Assembly (NCBI GenBank): GCA_028284905.1
Contig: JANQQU010000056.1
Location: 1-64,000, forward strand
Length of the DNA stretch: 64,000 nucleotides
DNA from: Calditrichia bacterium
GTDB taxonomy: Bacteria > Calditrichota > Calditrichia > RBG-13-44-9 > J075
Reading direction: 5' to 3'
Shown here: in pieces, positions 27,376-49,100 of the stretch
How the letters are laid out: every line of letters starts with the position of its first letter
Numbering within the stretch: position 1 is the first letter of the stretch
The notes under the pieces: model-generated
Database searches by the model: none
The model's input: the letters and a program-made list of their open reading frames with translations, nothing else
What the model was told of the DNA's origin: nothing
Made by a program: the position numbers and the translations under genes

Positions 27376-27736
27376 ATATGCGATTATCCGCGTGGTGCCA
27401 CAGGTAGAACGGCAGGAGTTTCTTAATGCCGGCGTGGTCCTGTTTGCAAAAACCCGGAATTTTCTCGATGTCCGTATCGATAAGAACATCGCGCGTCTGG
27501 CACATTTCGCACCATCAGCCGACCGGCAAAAAGTGCAAGAGCAATTACAGGCGATAGAAACTATTTGTGCCGGTGGTGCAGCTGCGGGATATTTTGGCGG
27601 ACTGAGTCAATCGGAGCGATTTAACTGGATTGTTGCCCCAAGCAGCGATATCATTCAATGTTCGCCGGTCCACACCGGATGTGGAAAAGACCCGGCAAAA
27701 GAACTGGATGCACTTTACAAATTGTTAGTTAAATAA
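27353..27736 (+). CDS. DUF3037 protein paired with the HipA-like kinase
   Basis: 127 aa. The start MPDLCSFEYAIIRVVPQVERQEFLNAGVVLF and the downstream LSQSERFNWIVAPSSDIIQCSPVHTG are characteristic of DUF3037. It begins inside the last 23 bases of the HipA-like gene in another frame, with AAGGAGGCGGAGCG just upstream, so translation is probably coupled. Function of the family is unknown; its constant association with HipA_2 kinases suggests a partner, substrate or antidote (inference). The stop lies 15 bases into a 194-bp duplicated segment. Confidence 0.82.
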   Translation: MPDLCSFEYAIIRVVPQVERQEFLNAGVVLFAKTRNFLDVRIDKNIARLAHFAPSADRQKVQEQLQAIETICAGGAAAGYFGGLSQSERFNWIVAPSSDIIQCSPVHTGCGKDPAKELDALYKLLVK

Positions 27737-27915
27737 AGCTCCAAGTTCAAAGTTCAGAGTTCAGGGTTCAAAGTTAAATCAACTCTGAACTCTGAACTCT
27801 GAACTTATTAATGTTCTTCCTTCGCATCCCGTGCCATCAGAGCGGCCATGGCAACATGCGGATTTTTCTCATGAAAAAGCGCCTGATAAACCTGCTCGGC
27901 GATCGGCATCTCCAC
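27722..27915. repeat. 194-bp direct duplication, copy 1
   Basis: Covers the last codons of the DUF3037 gene, a heptamer array (AGTTCAA/AGTTCAG type with inverted partner) and the 3' end of a gpsA variant. It is followed without gap by copy 2. The copies are of identical length but differ at many positions and in heptamer count per arm. Confidence 0.9.
27808..27915 (-). pseudogene. Truncated second gpsA 3' end (35 codons)
   Basis: Reading leftward from 27915, 35 codons plus a stop give VEMPIAEQVYQALFHEKNPH...KEEH, identical in protein to the same stretch of the intact gpsA. The seven base differences from the intact gene are all at third codon positions and silent. The fragment has no start and no upstream part. 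The silent-only divergence shows it came from a functional gpsA of a closely related strain, not from decay after local duplication. Confidence 0.85.
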
Positions 27916-28109
27916 TTGTTAGTTAAATAAAGCTCCAAGTTCAAAGTTCAGGGTTCAAAGTTGAATCAACTCTGAACTTTGAACCCTGAACTCTGAACTT
28001 ACGAATGTTCTTCCTTCGCATCCCGAGCCATAAGAGCGGCCATGGCGACATGTGGATTTTTCTCATGAAAAAGTGCCTGATAAACCTGCTCCGCGATAGG
28101 CATCTCCAC
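27916..28109. repeat. 194-bp direct duplication, copy 2
   Basis: Begins with the same TTGTTAGTTAAATAAAGCTC as copy 1 and runs into the genuine gpsA coding region. Its left heptamer arm has one unit fewer and its right arm one unit more than copy 1. Confidence 0.9.
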
Positions 28110-33406: not shown

Positions 33407-36400
33407 ATGAAGCAGAGCTTTCATAAGCCCTTCCGGTTTTGGGGTTTGTGCAATTGGATATATTGTCTGTTCTTTTCTGCAGGGATATGGGCAGTGATTT
33501 ACGCCCAACCGCAAACAAACCTGCCTATTAATGAATCCGGTTTGCCCTTCATTCAAAATTTTAGTCCGAAAGACTATGGCAGCGCTCATGCCCAAAATTG
33601 GGCGGTTGTCCAGGACACGCGTGGCATTATTTACATCGCTAATAATCTGGGAATACTGATATACGACGGTGTTTCATGGCGGCTCGTTCCAACCAATTCT
33701 ACAGCGAGGGCCCTGGCAATCTCGGAGAATGGCCGTATTTTTGTCGGTTGCCGAGATGATTTTGGTTATCTGGCGCCGGATTCAACCGGGCAATTGCAAT
33801 TTGTCTCTTTACTTAAGGAGCTACCTGAAGCGTATCATAATTTTGGTGTGGTGCACGGTGTAAAAGTGACTGCGGAGGGCACATATTTTAAGGCTGCTCA
33901 AATTTTATTCCGTTGGAAAAAAGAGACAACTGAAGTTACCGGTATCACTGAGAACAAGGACGCTCCATCCGTGAGGGGGACGGTGAGCGTTTGGTCGGCG
34001 CAAACACGATTTATTCGACTATTTTCCACTCATAAAGGCATTTATGTTAATCAACCGACATTCGGGCTGATGAAGGTCGAAGGAGATTCGCTGGTTATGG
34101 CAGCAGGTGGGGAACGTTTTGCCCAGGGATCTGTCTATTTCATGCAGGATGTGCCTACGCATACCGAATCATCCGGCATGCGCATTTTAGCCGGTTCTCA
34201 CGCACATGGACTTTTTTGGTATGACGGTCGGGTCTTCGAACCCTTTTATCTTGAAGACGCTACCGCCAAGGAGTTAAAGGTGACGGGGTTGAGAGGCAGT
34301 ATATTATTGAATGATGGCACTCTTGCAGTGCGCACTCGCAGATTTGGGCTTCTGATTATCGATCAAAATGGCCGTTTGCGGCAAAAGGTAAACCGAGAAG
34401 CCGGTTTGCGCAGTCTGAATATCAGTGGTTTTTTTCAGGATCGCGAAAACGGCTTGTGGCTGGCCCAGGGCAGCGGAGTGGCCAGAGTGGAATTGCCCTC
34501 GCGTTTTTCTTATTTCGGCGAAGCATCCGGACTGTTGGGCAGTGTTCTTTCTATCAGCAGGCATAATGGAGAGCTATATGTTGCGGGCAGCCTGGGGGTT
34601 TTCAGGTTAACGACAGATATTTCAGCAAAGTCTGAGCCGCTTTTTAAGCGTTTCGAAGGTGTACTCGGCAGCACCTGGGCGCTGTTGTCAATCGGGAAGA
34701 CCCTTTTGATTGGCGGCGAAAGAGCCATTTATACTATTTCAGGTGATCAGGTTGAGAAAATAAACAGCCTGATGTCAAGGTATTTCTATCGTTCAACATA
34801 TCATCATGATTTGGTTTACGTCGGGCTGAACGGTGGACTGACAATTCTGAAAAAACAAAATGGCGAATGGTTGACTCGCCATGTTGCCGGAGTTACCGAA
34901 CAAATACGGAGTATCGTTGAGGTTAATCCCGGAGAGCTTTGGCTGGGGACTGGCAATAAAGGGGGCGCATTACATGTTAGAATTCCCGATTTGAGTAATA
35001 CTGAATCGGCCGAATTAGAATCTCCGGAGATTTTGGCAGAAGTGAAGCGTTATGGCAGTGAACATGGTCTTCCGGGCACCCGCTTCACCCGGGTTTATCC
35101 GACGGGAGGCAAAGCGATATTCGCGACAGACACTGGTTTGCGAAGCTTTAATGAAGAAAAACAGTATTTTTTCCCCGATTCTTCTTATGGTGCGATATTA
35201 GCCGACACGACCCGGATTGTCAGCCGGTTTGAGGAGGGCGCCGATGGTAAGTTTTGGGTGAAGACTACGAAGGACCATCGCCGGGAAACCGGTGTAATCA
35301 TACCGCAGAAAGATGGCAGTTATCTTTGGGATAGTAAGCCTTTTCTGCGCATCGCGGATTGGGGCAGCGTTTATTGCATTTATCCTGACCCGCTTGATGA
35401 GGATATTGCCTGGATTGGTGGCCCGGAAGGTCTTGTGCGTTATGATCAATCCATCGAGCGGGATTATGATGCTGATTTTCCGGCACTGATTCGCCGGGTG
35501 ATTGCCGATGGAGATTCGATCATCTTTTACGGAGAATCATCACCAGCAGCTTTAACAGATGGCCCGATTTTAGAATACAAGGATAATGCGCTGCGCTTCG
35601 AATATGCCGCGCCGACTCTTGATAACCCGGAAGAAAACAATTACCAGGTTTATCTCGAAGGTTTTGATAAAACCTGGTCGCCATGGACGACCGAGACCAA
35701 AAAAGACTACACGAATCTCCCGGAGGGGAACTACACATTTCGGGTGCGCGCAAAAAATATCTACGATCATCCCGGCAGCGAAGCGCATTTTTCATTCGAG
35801 ATTTTAAGACCCTGGTACCGAAGCTGGTGGGTATACAGCATTTACGGCTTACTTATTTTTACCTTTTTCTGGGCCATTCGCCGCTATGAAATGGGGCGGC
35901 AGCGCTTTAAACACGATGCCGAAATACGCGCGCAGGAAGCGGAGAAACTGCAGGAAGTTGACGCGTTGAAATCCCGTTTCTTTGCTAATATTTCTCACGA
36001 ATTCCGCACACCGCTAACCTTGATTATGGGCCAGACCGGCAATGTGCTCACGAAAGTGCAAGATCCGGATATGAAATCCCAATTGCAGATGTCCATGCGC
36101 AATGCCAATCGACTGCTTCGGCTGATCAATCAACTACTCGATTTATCGAAAATTGAAGCCGGTGGCATGACGCTGAAAGCGTCGCCGCAAAACATCGTTC
36201 CCTTGCTCCGCAGCCTGACTTCCTCATTCGAGTCTTTCGCCCGGAAAAAGGGCATCGGCCTGAAGTTTGATTGTGCTCACGAGAACATCATCGTCAATTG
36301 TGAGTTGGACAAAATCGAGAAAATTATCTATAACCTGCTCTCAAATGCGCTGAAGTTTACGCCGGAGGGGGGGACGGTGGGTGTACAGTTATCAGTAATC

Positions 36401-37618
36401 AGTAAACAGTTATCAGTTAACAGTGAACAGTTGTCAGTTAACAGTGAACAGTTATCAGTTGTCAGTGAACAGTTGTCAGATTTGGGGGGAGGGAATCTGG
36501 AGAGTCATTTATTGGTTGCTGTGCGGGATAATGGTATTGGTATTCCGGCGGATCGCCTCCCGCACATTTTTGATCGTTTTTACCAGGTGGATGCCTCGCA
36601 GACTCGGGAACAAGAAGGGACTGGTATTGGTCTCTCATTAACGAAGGAACTTGTGGAGCTTCATGTTGGCAGCATTTCTGTGGAGAGCCAGGAGGGCGTT
36701 GGCAGTACATTCAAAATTGAATTGCCGGTCTTGAGTGAAGCCGATTATAGCAGCGCGATATTGGAAGAAGAAGCCGAGGCGAGCGAGCGAGAGTTTGCGG
36801 TTGAAACAGTCTATGATGATTTTGCCTCAAATAGCAATCCCGCTGCCGGTTTGCAAGGAGAAACTGCCGGGGAGATTATTCTTGTCGTCGAAGATAATGC
36901 TGATGTGCGGGCGTATATCCGGCAAAACCTCGTAGACGATTATCGCATCGTCGAAGCCGCGGATGGGGAAGACGGATTTGCGAAAGCGCAGGAATTTATG
37001 CCGGATCTCATCATCAGCGATGTGATGATGCCGAAAGTGGATGGCTACGAGCTGGCCCGCCAGATCCGCAGTAATGAACTTACCAGCCACATACCCATTA
37101 TTATGCTGACGGCAAAAGCAGCGGAAGCGGAAAAACTGGAAGGGCTGGAAACCGGTGTTGATGCCTACCTGGTGAAGCCATTCAGCACGCAGGAATTGCA
37201 GATACGCATCCGCAAGCTGATCGAAATACGTCAGGCATTGCTAGCGAAGGTGCAGGAAAAACCGGTCATCTCTGCATCAAAAGTGATGGTGACATCCGTT
37301 GACCAGCAATTTCTTGAGCGGATGCAAAGTATTGTCGAGGAGAACATTGAAAATGAAAATTTCCAGCTTGAAGACCTATGCCGCGAAATCGGCATGAGCC
37401 GCAGCCATCTCCACCGCAAACTGTCCGCACTCCTCGGTATTTCACCAGCCCATTATATTCGCCGTATCCGCATGGAACGGGCCCGGCAACTCCTCGAAGA
37501 TAAAGCCGGCAACGTTTCCGAAATCGCCTTGCAAGTCGGCTACGCCAGCATCGCCACTTTTTCCCGAGCCTTTCGGGATACCTTTGGGGCACCGCCCTCG
37601 GAGTTTTTGAAAAAATAG
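33407..37618 (+). CDS. Hybrid two-component sensor kinase/response regulator with AraC output (HTCS)
   Basis: 1403 aa. An N-terminal signal/anchor (residues ~15-35) and a large periplasmic sensor of two-component-regulator propeller repeats are followed by a Y_Y_Y domain (about 720-800), a transmembrane helix (about 806-826), a HisKA domain with phospho-acceptor His864 (NISHEFRTPLT), a HATPase domain, a receiver domain with Asp1205 (LIISDVMMPK) and an AraC HTH domain to the end. In the HATPase domain, between the N-box (NLLSNALKFTPEGG) and the DNGIGIP box, residues ~993-1025 are a heptad repeat (QLSVNSE type) encoded by a heptamer DNA array. This membrane-spanning sensor-to-DNA arrangement often controls polysaccharide or surface-protein genes in FCB bacteria. 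The triplicated secreted-protein genes downstream are candidate targets (inference). Confidence 0.94.
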   Translation: MKQSFHKPFRFWGLCNWIYCLFFSAGIWAVIYAQPQTNLPINESGLPFIQNFSPKDYGSAHAQNWAVVQDTRGIIYIANNLGILIYDGVSWRLVPTNSTARALAISENGRIFVGCRDDFGYLAPDSTGQLQFVSLLKELPEAYHNFGVVHGVKVTAEGTYFKAAQILFRWKKETTEVTGITENKDAPSVRGTVSVWSAQTRFIRLFSTHKGIYVNQPTFGLMKVEGDSLVMAAGGERFAQGSVYFMQDVPTHTESSGMRILAGSHAHGLFWYDGRVFEPFYLEDATAKELKVTGLRGSILLNDGTLAVRTRRFGLLIIDQNGRLRQKVNREAGLRSLNISGFFQDRENGLWLAQGSGVARVELPSRFSYFGEASGLLGSVLSISRHNGELYVAGSLGVFRLTTDISAKSEPLFKRFEGVLGSTWALLSIGKTLLIGGERAIYTISGDQVEKINSLMSRYFYRSTYHHDLVYVGLNGGLTILKKQNGEWLTRHVAGVTEQIRSIVEVNPGELWLGTGNKGGALHVRIPDLSNTESAELESPEILAEVKRYGSEHGLPGTRFTRVYPTGGKAIFATDTGLRSFNEEKQYFFPDSSYGAILADTTRIVSRFEEGADGKFWVKTTKDHRRETGVIIPQKDGSYLWDSKPFLRIADWGSVYCIYPDPLDEDIAWIGGPEGLVRYDQSIERDYDADFPALIRRVIADGDSIIFYGESSPAALTDGPILEYKDNALRFEYAAPTLDNPEENNYQVYLEGFDKTWSPWTTETKKDYTNLPEGNYTFRVRAKNIYDHPGSEAHFSFEILRPWYRSWWVYSIYGLLIFTFFWAIRRYEMGRQRFKHDAEIRAQEAEKLQEVDALKSRFFANISHEFRTPLTLIMGQTGNVLTKVQDPDMKSQLQMSMRNANRLLRLINQLLDLSKIEAGGMTLKASPQNIVPLLRSLTSSFESFARKKGIGLKFDCAHENIIVNCELDKIEKIIYNLLSNALKFTPEGGTVGVQLSVISKQLSVNSEQLSVNSEQLSVVSEQLSDLGGGNLESHLLVAVRDNGIGIPADRLPHIFDRFYQVDASQTREQEGTGIGLSLTKELVELHVGSISVESQEGVGSTFKIELPVLSEADYSSAILEEEAEASEREFAVETVYDDFASNSNPAAGLQGETAGEIILVVEDNADVRAYIRQNLVDDYRIVEAADGEDGFAKAQEFMPDLIISDVMMPKVDGYELARQIRSNELTSHIPIIMLTAKAAEAEKLEGLETGVDAYLVKPFSTQELQIRIRKLIEIRQALLAKVQEKPVISASKVMVTSVDQQFLERMQSIVEENIENENFQLEDLCREIGMSRSHLHRKLSALLGISPAHYIRRIRMERARQLLEDKAGNVSEIALQVGYASIATFSRAFRDTFGAPPSEFLKK
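36385..36479. repeat. Heptamer tandem array inside the kinase ATPase domain
   Basis: Thirteen uninterrupted heptamers of consensus WCAGTNR (ACAGTTA, TCAGTAA, ACAGTGA and so on) fill 36385-36475. The reading frame stays open, so three heptamers give seven residues and the array is translated as a degenerate seven-residue repeat. Confidence 0.93.
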
Positions 37619-37624
37619 GTGAGT

Positions 37625-37774
37625 GCGTTGTTCGTTGTTCGTTCTTCGTTGTTCGTTTTTCGTAAAATAGATTGTGTAGCTTAAACTCAAGCCTACCATT
37701 CTTGGGGAAAACGATATCAACAATCAACGAATTTCGATCAACGATCAACGATCAACGAATTTCGATCAACGAAT
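37625..37774. repeat. Heptamer repeat blocks after the hybrid kinase gene
   Basis: Copies of a CGTTGTT-type heptamer at 37625-37661 and of its inverse (GATCAAC, AATCAACGAATTTC) at 37717-37774, giving an inverted pair like that at 6010-6164. The rest of the spacer up to 37915 repeats GAGACAAATTG twice (37793-37845) and shows no gene. Confidence 0.75.
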
Positions 37775-38744: not shown

Positions 38745-41700
38745 ATGAAAAGATTTTGGAAAAATGTTCTGGGCGCCACCATCGCACTGATCTGCTGTTT
38801 ACCGCTGATGGCCTTTGCCCAGTTTTCCCACATGTTTACAAACACCGCCCACATTGATGATGGAGGCGTTGCAAGGTGGATTTCTGTAGATGCTAATGGC
38901 ACGGTTTTTCTTTCGAACAATGATGAAGGGCTGCGCGCCTATACCTACGGAGGCTCATCTTTTACCAATACTGCACATATTGACCCGGGCGGGATTACAA
39001 AAGGTGTTGCGTTCACTGCAGACGGCACCGTAATTCTCGCAAACGGATATTCGGGTCTACGCGCCTTAAGCTACGACGGCTCATCCTTTACCAGCACTGC
39101 ATCTATTGATCTTGCAGAAGATGCAACAGCTGTCGCGGTGAATGCTGATGGTACTATTTTTGTTGTAAACTCATTCGCAGGCCTACGCGCCTTTAACTAT
39201 GACGGCTTATCCTTTACCAGCATCGCCCATATTGATAATGGCGGATCTGCAAGTGATGTCGCACTGGGGGCTGATGGCACCATTTTTACTGCGAACAGGA
39301 GTGACGGCCTGCGTGCCTATAGCTATGACGGCGTTTCCTTTACCAACACTGCACACATTAACCAGGGGGTGGCATACAGCCTTGCAATCGGTGCAGACGG
39401 CACCATTTTTGTCGCAAGCGGATATTCGGGGCTACACGCATACAGCTATGACGGCTCATCCTTTACCAATACCGCCCACATGTATAATGGGAGAGCGGCA
39501 GATGCTGTCGCGGTGGGGGCAGATGGCACCATCTTTCTGGCTAGTTTTAGAGGAGGGCTGTACGCCTACACCTACGACGGCTCGTCCTTTACCAACACCG
39601 CCCACATTGGTCAGGGTATGGATATGACTGACGTCGCTGTAGGGGCTGATGGCACCATTTTTCTGGCAAATTTTCACGACGGTATGAGTGCTTATCGCTA
39701 TTTTGAAAAAAATACCTACATCGTCACCAACACTAACGATGCCGGCAGTGGATCATTCCGTCAGGCCATTCTTGATGCCAACGCACACCCTAATATTGAT
39801 CCCAGCACGCCGGATACCATCAAATTTAATATTGATGGTGCCGGGCCGCATTCTATTCAACCGGGTTCCGCATTACCGGATATCACCGATGCGGTAATCA
39901 TCGACGGCACAACTAATCCCGACGCCAACCATAGCGCCTGGCCGCCAACGCTTTCGATTGAATTGAATGGTAGCAATGCCGGAAGCGCGAGTGGATTAAC
40001 CCTGCTGAGCGATGCCAGCGGCTCCACCATTCGCGGACTGGTTATCAACGGGTTTGATTACAACGGTATTGATCTGGTTTACAGTAGCAACAATCTTATA
40101 GAATGCAATTTTATCGGTACCAATACAGCTGGCACGGCGGCTATCCCTAACCTGGAGTCAGGCATATTGGTTAATAAGAGTACTCGGAACACCGTCGGTG
40201 GCACCAATGCTGGCGCCGGCAACCTTATTTCCGGAAATGGCGATCATGGTATCTTCATTGTTCTTTCAGATTTGACGTTGGTGCAGGGTAATTATATCGG
40301 AACGAATGCAGCTGGCACGGAGGCTATCCCCAACGAAAATATCGGTATACTTAATGATGTCGCTAACCGCAATACCATCGGCGGCGGCAGTGCTGTGGCC
40401 GGCAACCTCATTTCCGGAAACGGAGATCGTGGCATCTTGATTCGGGATTCAGATTCGACTTTAGTACAAGGTAATAATATCGGAATGAATGCAGCTGGCA
40501 CGGAGGCTATCCCCAATGAAGAATCGGGCATGGAATTGATACGAAGTGACCGCAGCACCATCGGCGGTAGCGAGGAGGGCGATGGAAATATTATCGCATA
40601 TAATAATGGAGCTGGTCTTTTTCTCGACAGCGGGCTTCGCAACCGTATTCTTGGCAATGCCATTTTTAATAACGGCACATTGGGCATCGATATTGCCGCT
40701 GAGGGGGTAAACGCCAACGATCCCGGCGATGACGACATTGGTGCGAACGATCTGCAGAACTTCCCGTTGCTCACCACAGCGAAAACGGATGATGGCGAGA
40801 TTACGATCTCCGGGACTTTTAACAGCACAGCGAACACCAACGGCTTTCGACTGGAGTTCTTCGCCAGCACCTCCTGCAACGGCGATCAATCCGGCAATCC
40901 GCAAAGCGAGGACTACGGCGAGGGCGAGACCTTCCTTGGTTACACCACTGTGAACACCGATGCGAACGGCGATGCCCGTTTTACCGTGAATTTAAGCGCG
41001 GATGTTGCCGTCGGTGCGTTTATCAGCGCAACTGCAACTTCGCCGGATAGCAGCACCTCGGAGTTTTCCCAATGTATTGCGGCAACGCCCCGATTCGTTC
41101 TGCTCTCTGCCATCGATATCGAAATCAGCGGCCTGCAATTATCAGATGGCGATATGCACGCCAATGACGATATCACTTTTAATAAAGGTCTCCCCGGCAC
41201 CCACACCGGCAACCTCAGTGCGGTTGACAACATCGATATCAGCAGTAAGAATACCATTGATGGTGATGTGAATGCCGGCGGTGATCTCGATAACGACGGG
41301 ACGATCAATGGCGCAGCAAACGGTGGTGCATCTGTCGACCCGGTTGATCTGCCTACCCTCGCCTCATTCACTGCGGGAACAGAAAATGTAACGGTGGATG
41401 GCGATGGTGATGTGACACTACCGCCTGGCATGAATAAAGATGTTGTCGTGGAAAGAGATGGCACTCTGCGCCTGAACGCCGGGGAATACTTTCTGGATGA
41501 ATTGGAATTTGGCACCGACACTCGCCTGATCGTCGACGTAAGCGGCGGTGATGTGGTGGTTAACATCGTCAGCGATTTGGAGTTTGGTCAGCGCATGGAA
41601 GTAAGCGTCAGTGGCGGCAGCACCTCCCGCTTTATTATCAATAGCATTCAGACTAAAAATATTGATTTTGGCCGGGAAGCAACGGTGATCGCTACCATTA

Positions 41701-42140
41701 TTGCTCCGGATGCGAAAGTTCGGGCGGGCAGCTATGTGCGCTTCAGCGGATCGATTTGTGCGAAAGATATCGTTTTCAGCACTGGTCCGGTGATTGTCGG
41801 CCACAATGCCAGTCTGCCGAAAGTAGTCGTCAATGATGAAGCAGATGTTGCTGCACTGCCGCAGGTTTTTGTGCTGGAACAGAATTACCCCAATCCCTTT
41901 AACCCCACGACTAATATCGGATTTCGGATGTCGGATGTCGGATTTGTTCAGCTGGCAATCTATGACATTACTGGGCAATTGGTGCGGACTTTGGTGAATG
42001 AACATCGTGCGGCTGGCAATTATACCGTCAGTTGGGATGCCACCAATGATTTCGGGGCAAAAGTGGCCAGCGGTGTTTACCTCTATAAGCTGCAAGCCGC
42101 GGATTTTGTGCAGGTGAAGAAGATGGTGCTGTTGAAGTAA
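38745..42140 (+). CDS. Giant secreted propeller/beta-helix protein, copy 1, with sorting domain
   Basis: 1131 aa from the ATG after AAAGGAG; a longer frame to 38658 would bury the signal peptide (MKRFWKNVLGATIALICCLP). Domain order: seven ~43-residue repeats with YDGSSFTNTAHID and GADGTIFLAN (residues ~22-320), fitting a seven-bladed propeller; a CSLREA-like start (VTNTNDAGSGSFRQAILDAN, ~325); a right-handed beta-helix with three GTNAAGTxAIPN units; a beta-sandwich (EDYGEGETFLGYTTV); a conserved region from ~783 (DIEISGLQLS...) resembling DUF7305; and a sorting domain from ~1040 (QNYPNPFNPTTNIGF ... KKMVLLK). Expected at the cell surface or outside. Function unknown; adhesion or matrix-building is a guess. 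First of three tandem paralogues. Confidence 0.88.
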   Translation: MKRFWKNVLGATIALICCLPLMAFAQFSHMFTNTAHIDDGGVARWISVDANGTVFLSNNDEGLRAYTYGGSSFTNTAHIDPGGITKGVAFTADGTVILANGYSGLRALSYDGSSFTSTASIDLAEDATAVAVNADGTIFVVNSFAGLRAFNYDGLSFTSIAHIDNGGSASDVALGADGTIFTANRSDGLRAYSYDGVSFTNTAHINQGVAYSLAIGADGTIFVASGYSGLHAYSYDGSSFTNTAHMYNGRAADAVAVGADGTIFLASFRGGLYAYTYDGSSFTNTAHIGQGMDMTDVAVGADGTIFLANFHDGMSAYRYFEKNTYIVTNTNDAGSGSFRQAILDANAHPNIDPSTPDTIKFNIDGAGPHSIQPGSALPDITDAVIIDGTTNPDANHSAWPPTLSIELNGSNAGSASGLTLLSDASGSTIRGLVINGFDYNGIDLVYSSNNLIECNFIGTNTAGTAAIPNLESGILVNKSTRNTVGGTNAGAGNLISGNGDHGIFIVLSDLTLVQGNYIGTNAAGTEAIPNENIGILNDVANRNTIGGGSAVAGNLISGNGDRGILIRDSDSTLVQGNNIGMNAAGTEAIPNEESGMELIRSDRSTIGGSEEGDGNIIAYNNGAGLFLDSGLRNRILGNAIFNNGTLGIDIAAEGVNANDPGDDDIGANDLQNFPLLTTAKTDDGEITISGTFNSTANTNGFRLEFFASTSCNGDQSGNPQSEDYGEGETFLGYTTVNTDANGDARFTVNLSADVAVGAFISATATSPDSSTSEFSQCIAATPRFVLLSAIDIEISGLQLSDGDMHANDDITFNKGLPGTHTGNLSAVDNIDISSKNTIDGDVNAGGDLDNDGTINGAANGGASVDPVDLPTLASFTAGTENVTVDGDGDVTLPPGMNKDVVVERDGTLRLNAGEYFLDELEFGTDTRLIVDVSGGDVVVNIVSDLEFGQRMEVSVSGGSTSRFIINSIQTKNIDFGREATVIATIIAPDAKVRAGSYVRFSGSICAKDIVFSTGPVIVGHNASLPKVVVNDEADVAALPQVFVLEQNYPNPFNPTTNIGFRMSDVGFVQLAIYDITGQLVRTLVNEHRAAGNYTVSWDATNDFGAKVASGVYLYKLQAADFVQVKKMVLLK

Positions 42141-42258: not shown

Positions 42259-45200
42259 ATGAAGAGTTTTTGGAGAATCCTTAGATACGCCGCAATCGTG
42301 TTGATTTTACCGGCTACGGTATTTGCCCAGTTGTCCCATATTTTTACCAACACTGCTCATATCGATGAAGGAGGTTTTGCAATAGACGTCACGTTGGGCG
42401 CAGACGGCACTATCTTCCTCGCCAACGGCGATGACGGCCTGCGTGCTTATAGTTACGATGGCTCATCCTTTACCAACACCGCCCACATTCATAATGGCGA
42501 ATTAATAATAGGCGTCGCACTGGGCGCAGACGGCACTGTATTTGTGGCAAAATCAGAAGACGGTCTTAGCGCTTATAGCTACGACGGTTCATCCTTTACC
42601 AATACTGCCAACATTGATGATGGGGGATTTGCCGAAGATGTCGCCGTAGGTGCAGACGGTACTGTCTTCCTCGCGAATGGTGATGGCGGCCTGCTTGCCT
42701 ATAGTTACGACGGCTCATCCTTTACCAACACCGCCTTCATTAGTAATGGGACGGGATTTGCCGAAGATGTCGCCGTGGGAGCAGACGGCACTGTCTTTCT
42801 CGCGAACATAACTGAAGGCCTGGGCGCCTACAGCTATGACGGTTCATCCTTCACCAATACCGCCCATATCGATAATGGCGGGCAGGCGTTTGGCGTTGCA
42901 GAGGGACCTGATGGCACAATCTTTCTCGCGAATTTTGATGATGGCCTGCGTGCCTATAGCTACGATGGCTCATCCTTTACCAATACCGCCCACATTGATG
43001 ATGGCGAGTTTGCATTGGGCGTTACAGTGGGTGCAGACGGCACAATTTTCCTTGCGAACAATAATGGCGGCCTGTTTGCCTATAGTTACGATGGCTCATC
43101 TTTTACAAACATCGCGCACATTAATGATGGAGATGGCGCCCGTAGTATCGCATTGGGTGCAGACGGTACTGTTTTTCTGGCGAACCAGCCTGACGGTTTG
43201 CGCGCCTATCGTTTTACTGAATTAATCAATACCTTTATTGTTACCAACACGAACGATGCCGGTGAAGGTTCACTGCGTCAGGCTATTCTCGATGCCAATG
43301 CACATGTTAATTTAGACTTTGACGTGCCGGACTCCATCAAGTTCGAGATCGACGGCGCCGGACCGCATACCATTCAGCCGAATTCTGCGTTACCGGCCAT
43401 TACAGATCCGGTGATCATCGACGGCACTACGGAGCCAGACGCCAATTGCGATAGCTGGCCGGCAACTTTAGCGATTGAGCTGGACGGTAGCAATGCAGGT
43501 AACCTGGTTACTGGTTTGACCCTGCAAAGCGGATCCAATGGTTCCACTATTCGTGGGCTGGTTATCAATCGTTTCAGTTCATCCGGTATTCTCATTTCTG
43601 ACAGTGACAGCAATAAGATTGAATGTAACATCATTGGCCTGGACATCACTGGTAACATTAGTCGGGGAAATGGTGCCAATGGTATCAGAATTATAAATGG
43701 TGCCCATTCAAATTTAGTTGGTGGCATCGAATTTGGCGCCGGTAATATCATTTCCGGCAACGGCTCAAATGGCATTTTTATAAGTGGTTCAGGTGCTCGA
43801 AACAATCGTGTCCAGGGGAACAGAATTGGCACAAACGCGGCAGGGACTGCTGATATTCAGAACAATTTCGGCGGTATATCGATTTCATTTTCCAATAACA
43901 ATCTCATCGGTGGTGCTTCCAGCGCGGCGCGCAATCTTATTTCCGGTAATATGGGGAATGCTAATACCGAGGGAGACGAAATTGGCATCTCTTTTTCCGA
44001 CAGCAACACTGTGCAGGGCAATTATATTGGCACTAATGCTGCCGGAACGGCAGCGATTACAAATATTAATGATGGGATAAGTCTCTATCAAAGCAGCAAA
44101 ACAAATATTATAGACAATCTCATCTCCGGAAACGACCAGGGAATATATTCGACTTATTCAGATTCTTCAGTCGTGCAGGGTAATTTTATCGGAACGGATG
44201 CCAGTGGAACGGTGGCGATACCAAATGAAGATGGCCTTTTTCTACTGAGAAAAACTCGTGATTTCTTGATTGGTGGCAGCGCACCAGGACAGGGGAATCT
44301 GATCTCGGGTAATTTAGGTAGTGGTATCGTTATTAGTAGTGGGGTCAGAGGCAATATTGTTCAGGGCAACCGTATTGGTACCGATATAACCGGCAGCCTG
44401 GCGCTTGGAAATGACGGAAATGGCGTCTTTCTTGGCAGCCTTTTGGGTCCCCGACCTAGCGAAGGTGCCGCTAATGTTGTGGGCGGTCTCTCAAGTGGGG
44501 CCGGAAATATTATTGCGTTCAATGGTGGCTCTGGTATCGTTATAACCAATTATGGTAATATCATATCCGGTAACGCAATATTCAATAACGGGCAACTTGG
44601 TATAGATCTGGATAGAAATGGCGTAACTGCCAATGACGAGGGCGATGACGACCTTGGCGGAAATGATTTGCAAAACTATCCGTTGCTCACATCCGCGGAA
44701 ACCGACGGTGGTGAGATAACCATCACCGGCACCTTCAACAGTACACCGAACACCAATGATTTCGTGCTGGAGTTCTTCGCCAACACTGTCTGCAATGGCG
44801 ATCAGAACGGCAATCCGCAAAGCGATGATTACGGTGAAGGCGAGATTTTCCTCGGTTACACCACCGTGAGCACTGATGCTAACGGCGACGCCAGCTTTTC
44901 GGTTAATTTAACCGCAGATGTTGCCGCCGGCGCGTTCATCACTGCAACAGCGACCTCACCGGATAGCAATACCTCGGAGTTCTCGCAATGCATCGTGGCA
45001 GCTGATGGCTCGCTTCACAGCTTCCTCCTGCTCTCTGCGATGGATATCGAAATCAGCGGTCTGCAATTATCTGCCGGCGATATGCACGCGAACGATGATA
45101 TCACCTTTAATAAAGGCTTCCCCGGCACCCATACCGGCAACCTCAGTGCTGTTGACAACATCGATATTAGCAGTAAGAATACCATCGATGGTGATGTAAA

Positions 45201-46188: not shown

Positions 46189-49100
46189 ATGAATAGATTT
46201 TGGAAACATTTTGTATGCGCTACCATCGTGCTGAGCTGTTGTTTACCGTTGACTGCATTTGCCCAATTGTCGCACCTGTTGATTAACACGGCACATATTA
46301 ATAATGGAAATACTGCGCTAGACGTGGCTACGGGCATTGATGGCACTGTTTTTCTCGCAAATATGCAAGACGGCTTGCGTGCCTATAATTACAACGGTGC
46401 ATCCTTCACTAACACCGCCCACATTGATGATGGGGGACTTGCGTTTGGCGTTGCAGTGGGGGCTGATGGTACCGTTTTTCTTGCGAATCATAATGATGGT
46501 CTGCGCGCCTATAGCTACGATGGCTCATCCTTCACCAACACCGCCCATATTGATAATGGAGGCGTTGCAAATGGCGTTGCTGTGGGCGCTGACGGCACCA
46601 TTTTTCTCGCAAACGGAGATGACGGTCTGCGCGCCTATACTTACGACGGCACATCCTTTACTAACACTGCCCACATTGATAATGGGGGGAGAGCTTTAGA
46701 CCTTACAGTTCATTTTGACGGCACCATTTTTCTTGCGAATCTGGATGACGGTTTACGCGCCTATAGTTATGATGGTTCATCCTTCACTAACACCGCCCAT
46801 ATTAATGATGGGGGAACTGCTGCTGATGTTGCATTGGATTTTAACGGCATTATTTTTCTGGCGAACAGTAGTGATGGCTTGCGCGCCTATAGCTATGATG
46901 GTTTATCCTTCACTAACACCGCTCACATTGGTTACCCGGTGAGTGATGCGCTTGGTGTCACGGTCAGTGTAGACGGCACTGTTTTTCTCGCGAACCTGGA
47001 AGACGGCCTGCTCGCCTTTCGCTACGATGACTCATCCTTTACCAACACTGCCCACATTGATAATGGAGGGGAAGGATATGATGTTGCAATTGGGCCAGAC
47101 GGCACCATTTTTCTGGCGAACAACTTTGACGGCTTACGCGCCTATCGTTATTTGGAAATCACCCATACTTTTATCGTCAGAAACACCAACGATGCCGGTT
47201 CAGGCTCTTTGCGCCGGGCCATCATCGATGCCAACGCTATACCGAATATCGCTCCTAACACGCCGGATATCATCCGTTTCGATATCGAAGGTCCCGTACC
47301 GCATACCATTCAGCCAGATTCTGCATTACCGGATATCACCGACGCCGTAATCATCGACGGCACTACGGAGCCGGACGCTAATTGTGACACCTGGCCGGGA
47401 ACACTCTCTGTTGAGCTGGACGGCACAAATGCCGGTGTTGGCGCTAGTGGCCTCACTTTAAACAGCGGCGCCAGCTTTTCGACTATTCGTGGATTGGTCA
47501 TCAACCGTTTCGATGCAAATGGTATCCTTGTTGTAGAAAGTAACAGGAGCAAAATCGATTGTAACTTCATCGGTATTGATGTCACCGGCACAGTTGATCT
47601 CGGGAATGGCAATGCCGGCGTAAAAATCGCCAATAATGCCTACGGAATTACAGTTGGCGGGATCGAAGAGGGCAGCGGTAATATCATTTCCGGTAACGGT
47701 GCTTATGGTGTTGCTATTATTGGAACGCCTGATAGTGATGTTCGGGAAAACCGGGTACTGGGTAACAGAATCGGTACAAACGCAGCAGGCACTGCTGCTA
47801 TTCCGAATGATGAAGGCGGCGTGGAGGTTGAATACGCCAAGAGAAACCAAATTGGTGGCTTCTCCGACTGGACACGTAATGTTATTTCCGGTAATGGAGA
47901 TGGCGGCTCCGACGTGAAAGGTATTTATATCGCTAATGCAGATAGCAACCTGATTCATAACAATTATATCGGCACAAATGCTGCGGGGACAGCCGCGGTA
48001 GGAAATGCCGCATTCGGTATCAGGATTAGTGCAAGTACCTTTACACGTGTTTTTAGCAACGTTATTTCCGGTAATAACGCGGGGCTGTTTATTTATTCAT
48101 CAGAGAGTACAGTCGTTCACAGTAATTTTATTGGCACGGATGTGAGCGGTACGATGGCTATACCTAATAATTTTGGCATTGTTACAACGAGAGGTACTCG
48201 TGCTTCCGCAATTGGTGGCACTTTCCCGGGACAAGGGAATCTGATATCGGGTAACATAAGATCCGGTATTTCTATGAGTAATGCTACAGACAATATTATC
48301 CGGGCGAATCTTATCGGAACGGATATAACCGGTAGTGCAGCACTTGGTAACGGTGAAGAGGGTATCGTGATTAACGGCGGAAATGCCAGGTTCGGGGTTA
48401 GTCGCAATAATTTCGTGGGAGGCCTCTCAAATGGTGCCGGTAATATTATTGCATTCAATGGCGGTAATGGTATTGGATTAAGTGATCGTGCTGGCAGTAG
48501 TAATGCTATATCCGGTAACTCTATTTTCAATAATGGATTGCTCGGGATTGATTTGGGAATATTCGACTCAATTGGTGTCTCCGCCAATGATCAAGGGGAT
48601 AGCGATATGGGCGTGAATAATTTCCAAAACTATCCACTACTTACATCAGCGGAAACGGACGGCAGCGAGATTACCATCACTGGGACCTTTAACAGCACAG
48701 CGAACACGAATGATTTCGTGCTCGAGTTTTTCGCCAACTCTGTCTGCAACGGCGATCAGAACGGCAATCCGCAGAGCGATGACTACGGTGAGGGCGAGAC
48801 TTTTCTCGGATTCACCACCGTGAACACCGATGCTAACGGCAATGCCAGCTTTTCGATAAACTTAACTGCGGATGTTGCCATTGGTACGTTTATCAGCGCA
48901 ACCGCGACTTCACCGGATAGCAGCACCTCGGAGTTCTCGCAATGCATTGAAGCAACCGACGGCTCGCTTCATAATTTTCTCCTGCTCTCTGCGATGGATA
49001 TTGAAATTAGCGGCCTGCAATTATCAGCTGGTGATATGCACGCCAATGACGATATCACCTTTAACAAAGGCTTCCCCGGCACCCATACCGGCAACCTCAG

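Follow-up and report, generated by a model that had tools for sequence, protein, structure and literature searches.

The heptamer array in the catalytic domain of the HTCS sensor kinase studied here appears to be a copy of the heptamer hairpin repeats that are dispersed in the host genome. This copy would have come to lie, and have been kept, in the turn that links the N-box to the G1 box. A probability of roughly three in four is assigned to this reading. It is supported by the abundance of the repeats in the genome, by their near absence from the interior of other genes, by the recurrence of inserts in the same turn of paralogous and related kinases, and by structure models with and without the insert.

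The kinase gene and its heptamer array

The window, i.e., the whole stretch of 64,000 nucleotides that was analysed, represents contig C67 of an 8.55-Mb genome of the phylum Calditrichota. The kinase encoded in it is an HTCS protein according to Pfam, as a propeller repeat, Y_Y_Y, HisKA, HATPase_c, REC and an AraC-type HTH are united in one chain (Table 1). The array is preceded by base A at 36385 and consists of 13 complete units and a final CAG. The NRW triplets of the units read TAT, AAT, AAA, TAT, TAA, GAA, TGT, TAA, GAA, TAT, TGT, GAA and TGT. TRF reported a period of 7 with 12.9 copies, and a period of 21 performed better (87% matches). A 4-unit CAGTNNN pattern matched the array ten times perfectly, with overlaps, and twice imperfectly; in dinucleotide shuffles of the window, the same match averaged 0.12 and never exceeded 1. 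The translated array, VQLSVISKQLSVNSEQLSVNSEQLSVVSEQLS, is flanked by NALKFT and RDNGIGIP and lies inside Pfam HATPase_c. The preliminary description, which had reported thirteen in-frame heptamers within the HATPase domain, is thus borne out by the units, TRF, the shuffles and Pfam.

Table 1 Features of the window and of related kinase genes of the same genome (contig names given for features outside the window and for loop inserts)
Feature	Position	Strand	Basis
HTCS-type hybrid sensor kinase gene, 1403 aa	33407..37618	+	ORF; Pfam: Reg_prop, Y_Y_Y, HisKA, HATPase_c, REC, AraC-type HTH_18
HisKA domain, aa 855-919	35969..36163	+	Pfam
HATPase_c domain, aa 968-1108, encloses heptamer array	36308..36730	+	Pfam
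First beta-hairpin strand, aa 990-1001 (model 151-162), predicted; +3 residues vs insert-free homologue (151-159)	36374..36409	+	AF2
Thirteen CAGTNRW heptamers + CAG, in-frame QLSV.S. repeats, single (+) arm	36386..36479	+	sequence, TRF, fold
Low-confidence hairpin tip, aa 1002-1030, insert proper, predicted; 3-residue turn in insert-free homologue	36410..36496	+	AF2
Return strand, aa 1031-1041, predicted; runs into G1 box DNGIGI	36497..36529	+	AF2
B-family array (CGTTGTT), directly after kinase stop codon	37626..37663	+	TRF, array survey
B-family opposite arm (ATCAACG), same intergenic inverted pair	37716..37774	-	TRF, array survey
Heptamer hairpin inside HTCS gene, N-box/G1 loop	C40 173830		hairpin scan
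Heptamer hairpins inside HTCS gene, loop and HATPase-REC linker	C37 4598		hairpin scan
Heptamer hairpin inside HTCS gene, HATPase-REC linker	C89 171382		hairpin scan
Heptamer hairpin inside HTCS gene, HATPase-REC linker	C1 41051		hairpin scan
CAGTNRW-type loop inserts	C67 (window), C37, C66 (two), C42, C91, C40		loop survey
GGAATTC-type loop inserts	C13, C89, C12, C1, C60, C45		loop survey
CGGATTT-type loop insert	C39		loop survey

From the N-box to G1, the window kinase has 67 aa, compared with a mode of 34 aa and mostly 34-40 in the named homologues. The core of the window protein was modelled by AlphaFold2 with a pLDDT of 87.5; model residues 151-162 and 192-202 were predicted as strands, and the tip that separates them has low confidence. 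In the model of the insert-free homologue L225, the strands (151-159 and 163-170) are joined by a 3-residue turn. According to these models, the insert is placed exactly at the turn, both strands are about three residues longer and a low-confidence tip of about 29 residues is added. The loop position that the preliminary description had proposed for the array is supported by this modelling with and without the insert, as had been suggested there, and is placed at the tip of the N-box/G1 beta-hairpin. It had also considered that homologues might all have an unrelated loop of equal length. Their loop is indeed unrelated, but it is not equal in length, a short turn being found instead. Among solved structures, HK853 and kinases of the WalK/YycG type come closest. 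The window array differs from most of its two-armed counterparts in having no opposite arm and no hairpin fold (folding z = +0.1), and a hairpin in this copy was rejected on the basis of the fold value.

Heptamer repeats in the genome and within genes

In the genome, the 4-unit CAGTNRW pattern was matched at 139 places in forward and 114 in reverse orientation, and at none with the reversed control. Three of 40 Calditrichota genomes are positive, and no match was found in the six other genomes of the host's family. The commonest unit is CAGTTAT (116/273), a rotation of TCAGTTA. TRF and hairpin scans were applied to a sample of 1.25 Mb, composed of C39, C40, C37:1-80k, C89:1-260k, C1 and the window; these contigs were picked for holding HTCS genes, and genes were called by a simple script. 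TRF revealed further heptamer families in this sample, namely CGTTGWT (B), GGAATTC/GCGGAAT (C), AGTTCA/AGAGTTC (D) and CGGATTT (E). The families are mostly intergenic and mostly arranged as inverted pairs. In the array survey of the 1.25 Mb, neighbouring arrays of one family show the + arm first and then the - arm. Considering all families, an inverted repeat with a seed of 13 or more is present in 29 of the 60 spacers between convergent genes, in 48 of the 289 between tandem genes and in 4 of the 73 between divergent genes. This distribution, rich in convergent and poor in divergent spacers, is as expected for elements excluded from promoters.

An unbiased inverted-repeat scan of the sample yielded 115 cases, i.e., 98 intergenic, 9 at gene edges and 8 in gene interiors. 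Five of the 8 interior repeats are made of heptamers, all of them in four HTCS genes; the HTCS-focused choice of contigs overstates the density of loop insertions, not the restriction to HTCS relative to other genes of the same contigs. The remaining three, each with a single seed and without heptamers, appear to be chance cases. By summed gene lengths, HTCS genes account for roughly 5% of the sample's coding sequence. Apart from the HTCS arrays and the one at C39 195699, other in-gene arrays of families A-D detected by TRF lie within about the first 31 codons, and the simple gene calls may begin too early there. The array at C39 195699 merely has a short motif in common with the heptamer families.

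Other repeats were noticed in the window. The inverted CGTTGTT/ATCAACG pair behind the kinase gene (37626-37774) is possibly a terminator-like hairpin. At 27722-28109, a unit of about 194 bp, an AGTTC/GAACT heptamer hairpin, is present in two tandem copies (89% matches). TCGGATG heptamers at 41917-41943 code for the turn in a C-terminal sorting domain (NIGFRMSDVGFV); among the 51 YPNPFNP genes of the sample, 4 show a TCGGATG-like turn sequence, with no added length. Tandem repeats of 126 bp (42 residues) occur in genes for secreted propeller-like proteins at 39057-39287, 42395-43130 and 46337-47151.

Recurrence of inserts in the kinase loop

The genome contains 63 Y_Y_Y matches, and 35 kinases were aligned. 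Heptamer-derived sequence was found between the N-box and G1 in 14 of these 35, comprising seven CAGTNRW-type, six GGAATTC-type and one CGGATTT-type inserts. Several two-armed copies have extreme loop folding energies (z down to -9.4). The preliminary description had referred to short tandem heptamers as known in cyanobacteria mainly from spacers. The repeat nature of the array stands; its appearance as an isolated oddity does not, as the genome is full of inverted pairs and the loop is a recurrent home. In G000, at C39:130951-131011, an HTCS gene has a TAA between Y_Y_Y and HisKA, and the loop of its kinase part has CGGATTT-type heptamers.

Palindromes without heptamers occupy the same loop elsewhere. 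In another HK type, encoded on C64 and C69, it holds the CCCCCTTCAAAGGGGG palindrome (P); the genome has just three copies of P, these two included. The relative G005 has 44 P sites, including three HTCS loops. Palindromes encoding PPSKGG...PPFEGG are found in this loop in G005 and G006, and PPVSPLPSGHRTGMHKGG palindromes in G008 and G014, with a variant in G012. In G008, the CCGTCTGGNNACCGGACAGG core has a single exact copy, which sits in such a kinase loop. Outside loops, the sampled palindrome sites of the relatives mostly have no long ORF across them, and the few ORFs across G005 sites look like chance. Moreover, the near-identical orthologues G006:C436 and G005:C83 carry different loop inserts. 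In the genus G003, none of 79 copies of an abundant perfect palindrome was found in the loops examined; loop entry is therefore not automatic. A contig scan with a single protein as query found no relative.

The relationship among the kinases was studied with a tree from which the columns of loop and linker had been left out. The 14 kinases with heptamer-derived loops are spread across the kinase tree. On this tree, the CAGTNRW state needs 5 changes, at least 4 of which are forced by well-supported branches, and the GGAATTC type needs 3. The CAGTNRW carriers fall into 4-5 lineages that are separated by insert-free kinases from other genomes. The window kinase groups with four others in a fully supported clade of five rows, and none of these four has a CAGTNRW insert. 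The six two-armed CAGTNRW inserts have a common non-heptamer spacer, AAGRGATAAAAAACTG, which is absent from the intergenic hairpins examined. Since this private spacer is shared, the six inserts probably spread from kinase to kinase, and the idea that each CAGTNRW kinase acquired its insert de novo and fully independently is weakened. The DNA of their 3' arms is 74-89% identical, compared with 43-78% in the far flanks; identity of the near flanks is also raised, but the protein is conserved there, so that this does not demonstrate conversion tracts. The first bases of the window copy are those of the C37 insert (GTGTACAGTTATCAGT), the codon register is the same, and a second arm is lacking.

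As for the means of movement, the genome has two Y1 transposase genes. No inverted arrays were found beside either of them, and no mobilising enzyme was identified; mobilisation of the RAYT/REP kind, with a Y1 transposase flanked by repeats, was therefore rejected. One of the two genes adjoins a gene (L178 319-1170) whose protein consists largely of ASPEFRAAL repeats.

Origin of the insert and comparison with known systems

A dispersed heptamer repeat of the genome probably entered an HTCS kinase at the turn that connects the N-box helix with the G1 box. Following a single entry or a small number of entries, the CAGTNRW insert would probably have spread among paralogues by recombination or gene conversion, and it most likely expanded and contracted in 21-bp (7-residue) steps. 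The exposed turn would tolerate inserts that have a length divisible by three and a stop-free reading, and the CAGTNRW orientation would usually be stop-free over short lengths. Insertions elsewhere in genes would be removed by selection. The window copy is probably kin of the two-armed inserts that lost its second arm or never had one. The effect of the insert on signalling is most likely near-neutral. A broader reading is conceivable, although it is rather less likely than not. The N-box/G1 turn of sensor kinases may be a general landing place for bacterial palindromic repeats, where those of each lineage would settle, pass between paralogues, lengthen the beta-hairpin if two-armed and diversify the regulator family.

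The preliminary description had suggested that copy number could tune the kinase or shift its frame, and the array might accordingly be a contingency locus in which slippage in heptamer number switches the kinase on and off. The unit length is indeed not divisible by three. If the window array gained or lost 1-2 units, the protein would be truncated at aa 999-1075, with REC and HTH lost, and a change by three units would keep the frame; this consequence is as expected for a phase-variable locus. However, the repeats are not uniform. Adjacent units are never identical (0/12) and the best period is 21 bp, so that single-unit slippage is disfavoured. Furthermore, all seven CAGTNRW-type kinases are in frame. 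The suggestion is not supported by these features, and such a switch is considered very improbable. Unit identity at lag 3 amounts to 4/10 in the window array (permutation P = 0.025), with other arrays of the genome favouring lag 2; the lag-3 pattern weakly fits growth or constraint in 7-residue steps. Strong selection on frame openness was also considered and discarded. With third-unit stop codons counted, about 93% of the resampled 13-unit arrays had one open frame or more, and openness alone therefore proves nothing.

The insert could instead be an adaptive module, a beta-hairpin extension that diversifies or insulates paralogous HTCS kinases. Two-armed inserts encode alternating beta-type strands (VQLSVNS ... 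KLITDNCLLIT) that are symmetric about the turn, and occupancy is high (14/35), with the insert common to paralogues. Nevertheless, many kinases have short turns, the tip of the window protein is modelled at low confidence, and the proline/glycine-rich palindromes at the same turn of the relatives point to tolerance rather than to a particular structure. A selected function is considered unlikely. The odds are similarly low for one ancient insertion before the HTCS expansion that was lost in most members. The spacer and register shared by the six two-armed inserts agree with it, and the copies carry no date, so common ancestry with many losses would fit at the cost of more changes. It is at odds, nonetheless, with the scattering of carriers among insert-free members of other genomes, with the absence of the pattern from other genomes of the host's family, and with insert DNA that is more alike than most of the flanking kinase DNA. 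Repeats are prone to misassembly, but independent in-frame inserts, derived from different repeat families, were found in the same loop of 13 further kinases encoded on other contigs, and other assemblies show comparable cases. An assembly or sequencing artefact is hardly credible.

Repeats that are mostly intergenic and supposedly non-coding would thereby be linked to the way in which a large signalling-enzyme family has evolved. The histidine-kinase catalytic domain is seen to have a location that tolerates long insertions. Kinases with the same domain and turn, different inserts and insert-free kin form a natural series in which the effect of repeat-derived segments could be measured. They also provide a case for the movement of small palindromic repeats with no obvious transposase.

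Cyanobacterial STRR arrays are likewise tandem heptamers dispersed in the genome. Spacers and RNA genes are the main places where they occur, and they are not known to recur in a kinase loop as found here. The TAACTGA repeats of Beggiatoaceae, Cyanobacteria and Bacteroidetes consist of the same heptamer (TCAGTTA being the reverse complement), and have a similar translation (LSVISYQ) and one stop-rich strand (MacGregor 2015, PMC4679880). As described there, they are mainly direct repeats upstream of starts, with in-gene copies mostly at protein ends. In contrast, the tandem units studied here form inverted pairs that are commonest between convergent genes rather than just upstream of starts (divergent spacers 4/73), and in-gene copies lie in the middle of a catalytic domain. 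No kinase-loop example is described among the in-gene cases in the section consulted. A partial survey of the literature on palindromic repeats and histidine kinases likewise found no report of the N-box/G1 site.

PARCELs are 25-residue repeats that form tandem tracts, and most of the ORFs with such tracts have no assigned function (Roske et al. 2010, PMC2996958). PARCELs resemble the present case in that dyad-symmetric DNA encodes a structured protein repeat, but they are not insertions in the turn of an enzyme. Borg coding tandem repeats are direct repeats of archaeal extrachromosomal elements (PMC9879509). They similarly add flexible segments within genes, without a paralogue-wide kinase-loop site. 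Rickettsia palindromic elements are about 150 bp long, encode a conserved peptide and occur in many unrelated genes (Ogata et al. 2000, 2002, via PMC10969869). The repeats studied here differ from them, being heptamers or lineage-specific palindromes whose in-gene copies were nearly all found at a single turn, and at a single linker, of sensor kinases; within the 1.25 Mb, in-gene heptamer hairpins are confined to HTCS genes and do not form a conserved element of about 150 bp. What both have in common are small palindromic repeats that lie in frame in protein genes and are apparently compatible with function (PMC10969869). This likeness extends to the two-armed copies and the palindromes of the relatives, not to the one-armed window copy. 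The best reading is that of a repeat-derived insertion tolerated at an exposed turn, by analogy with the Rickettsia palindromic elements.
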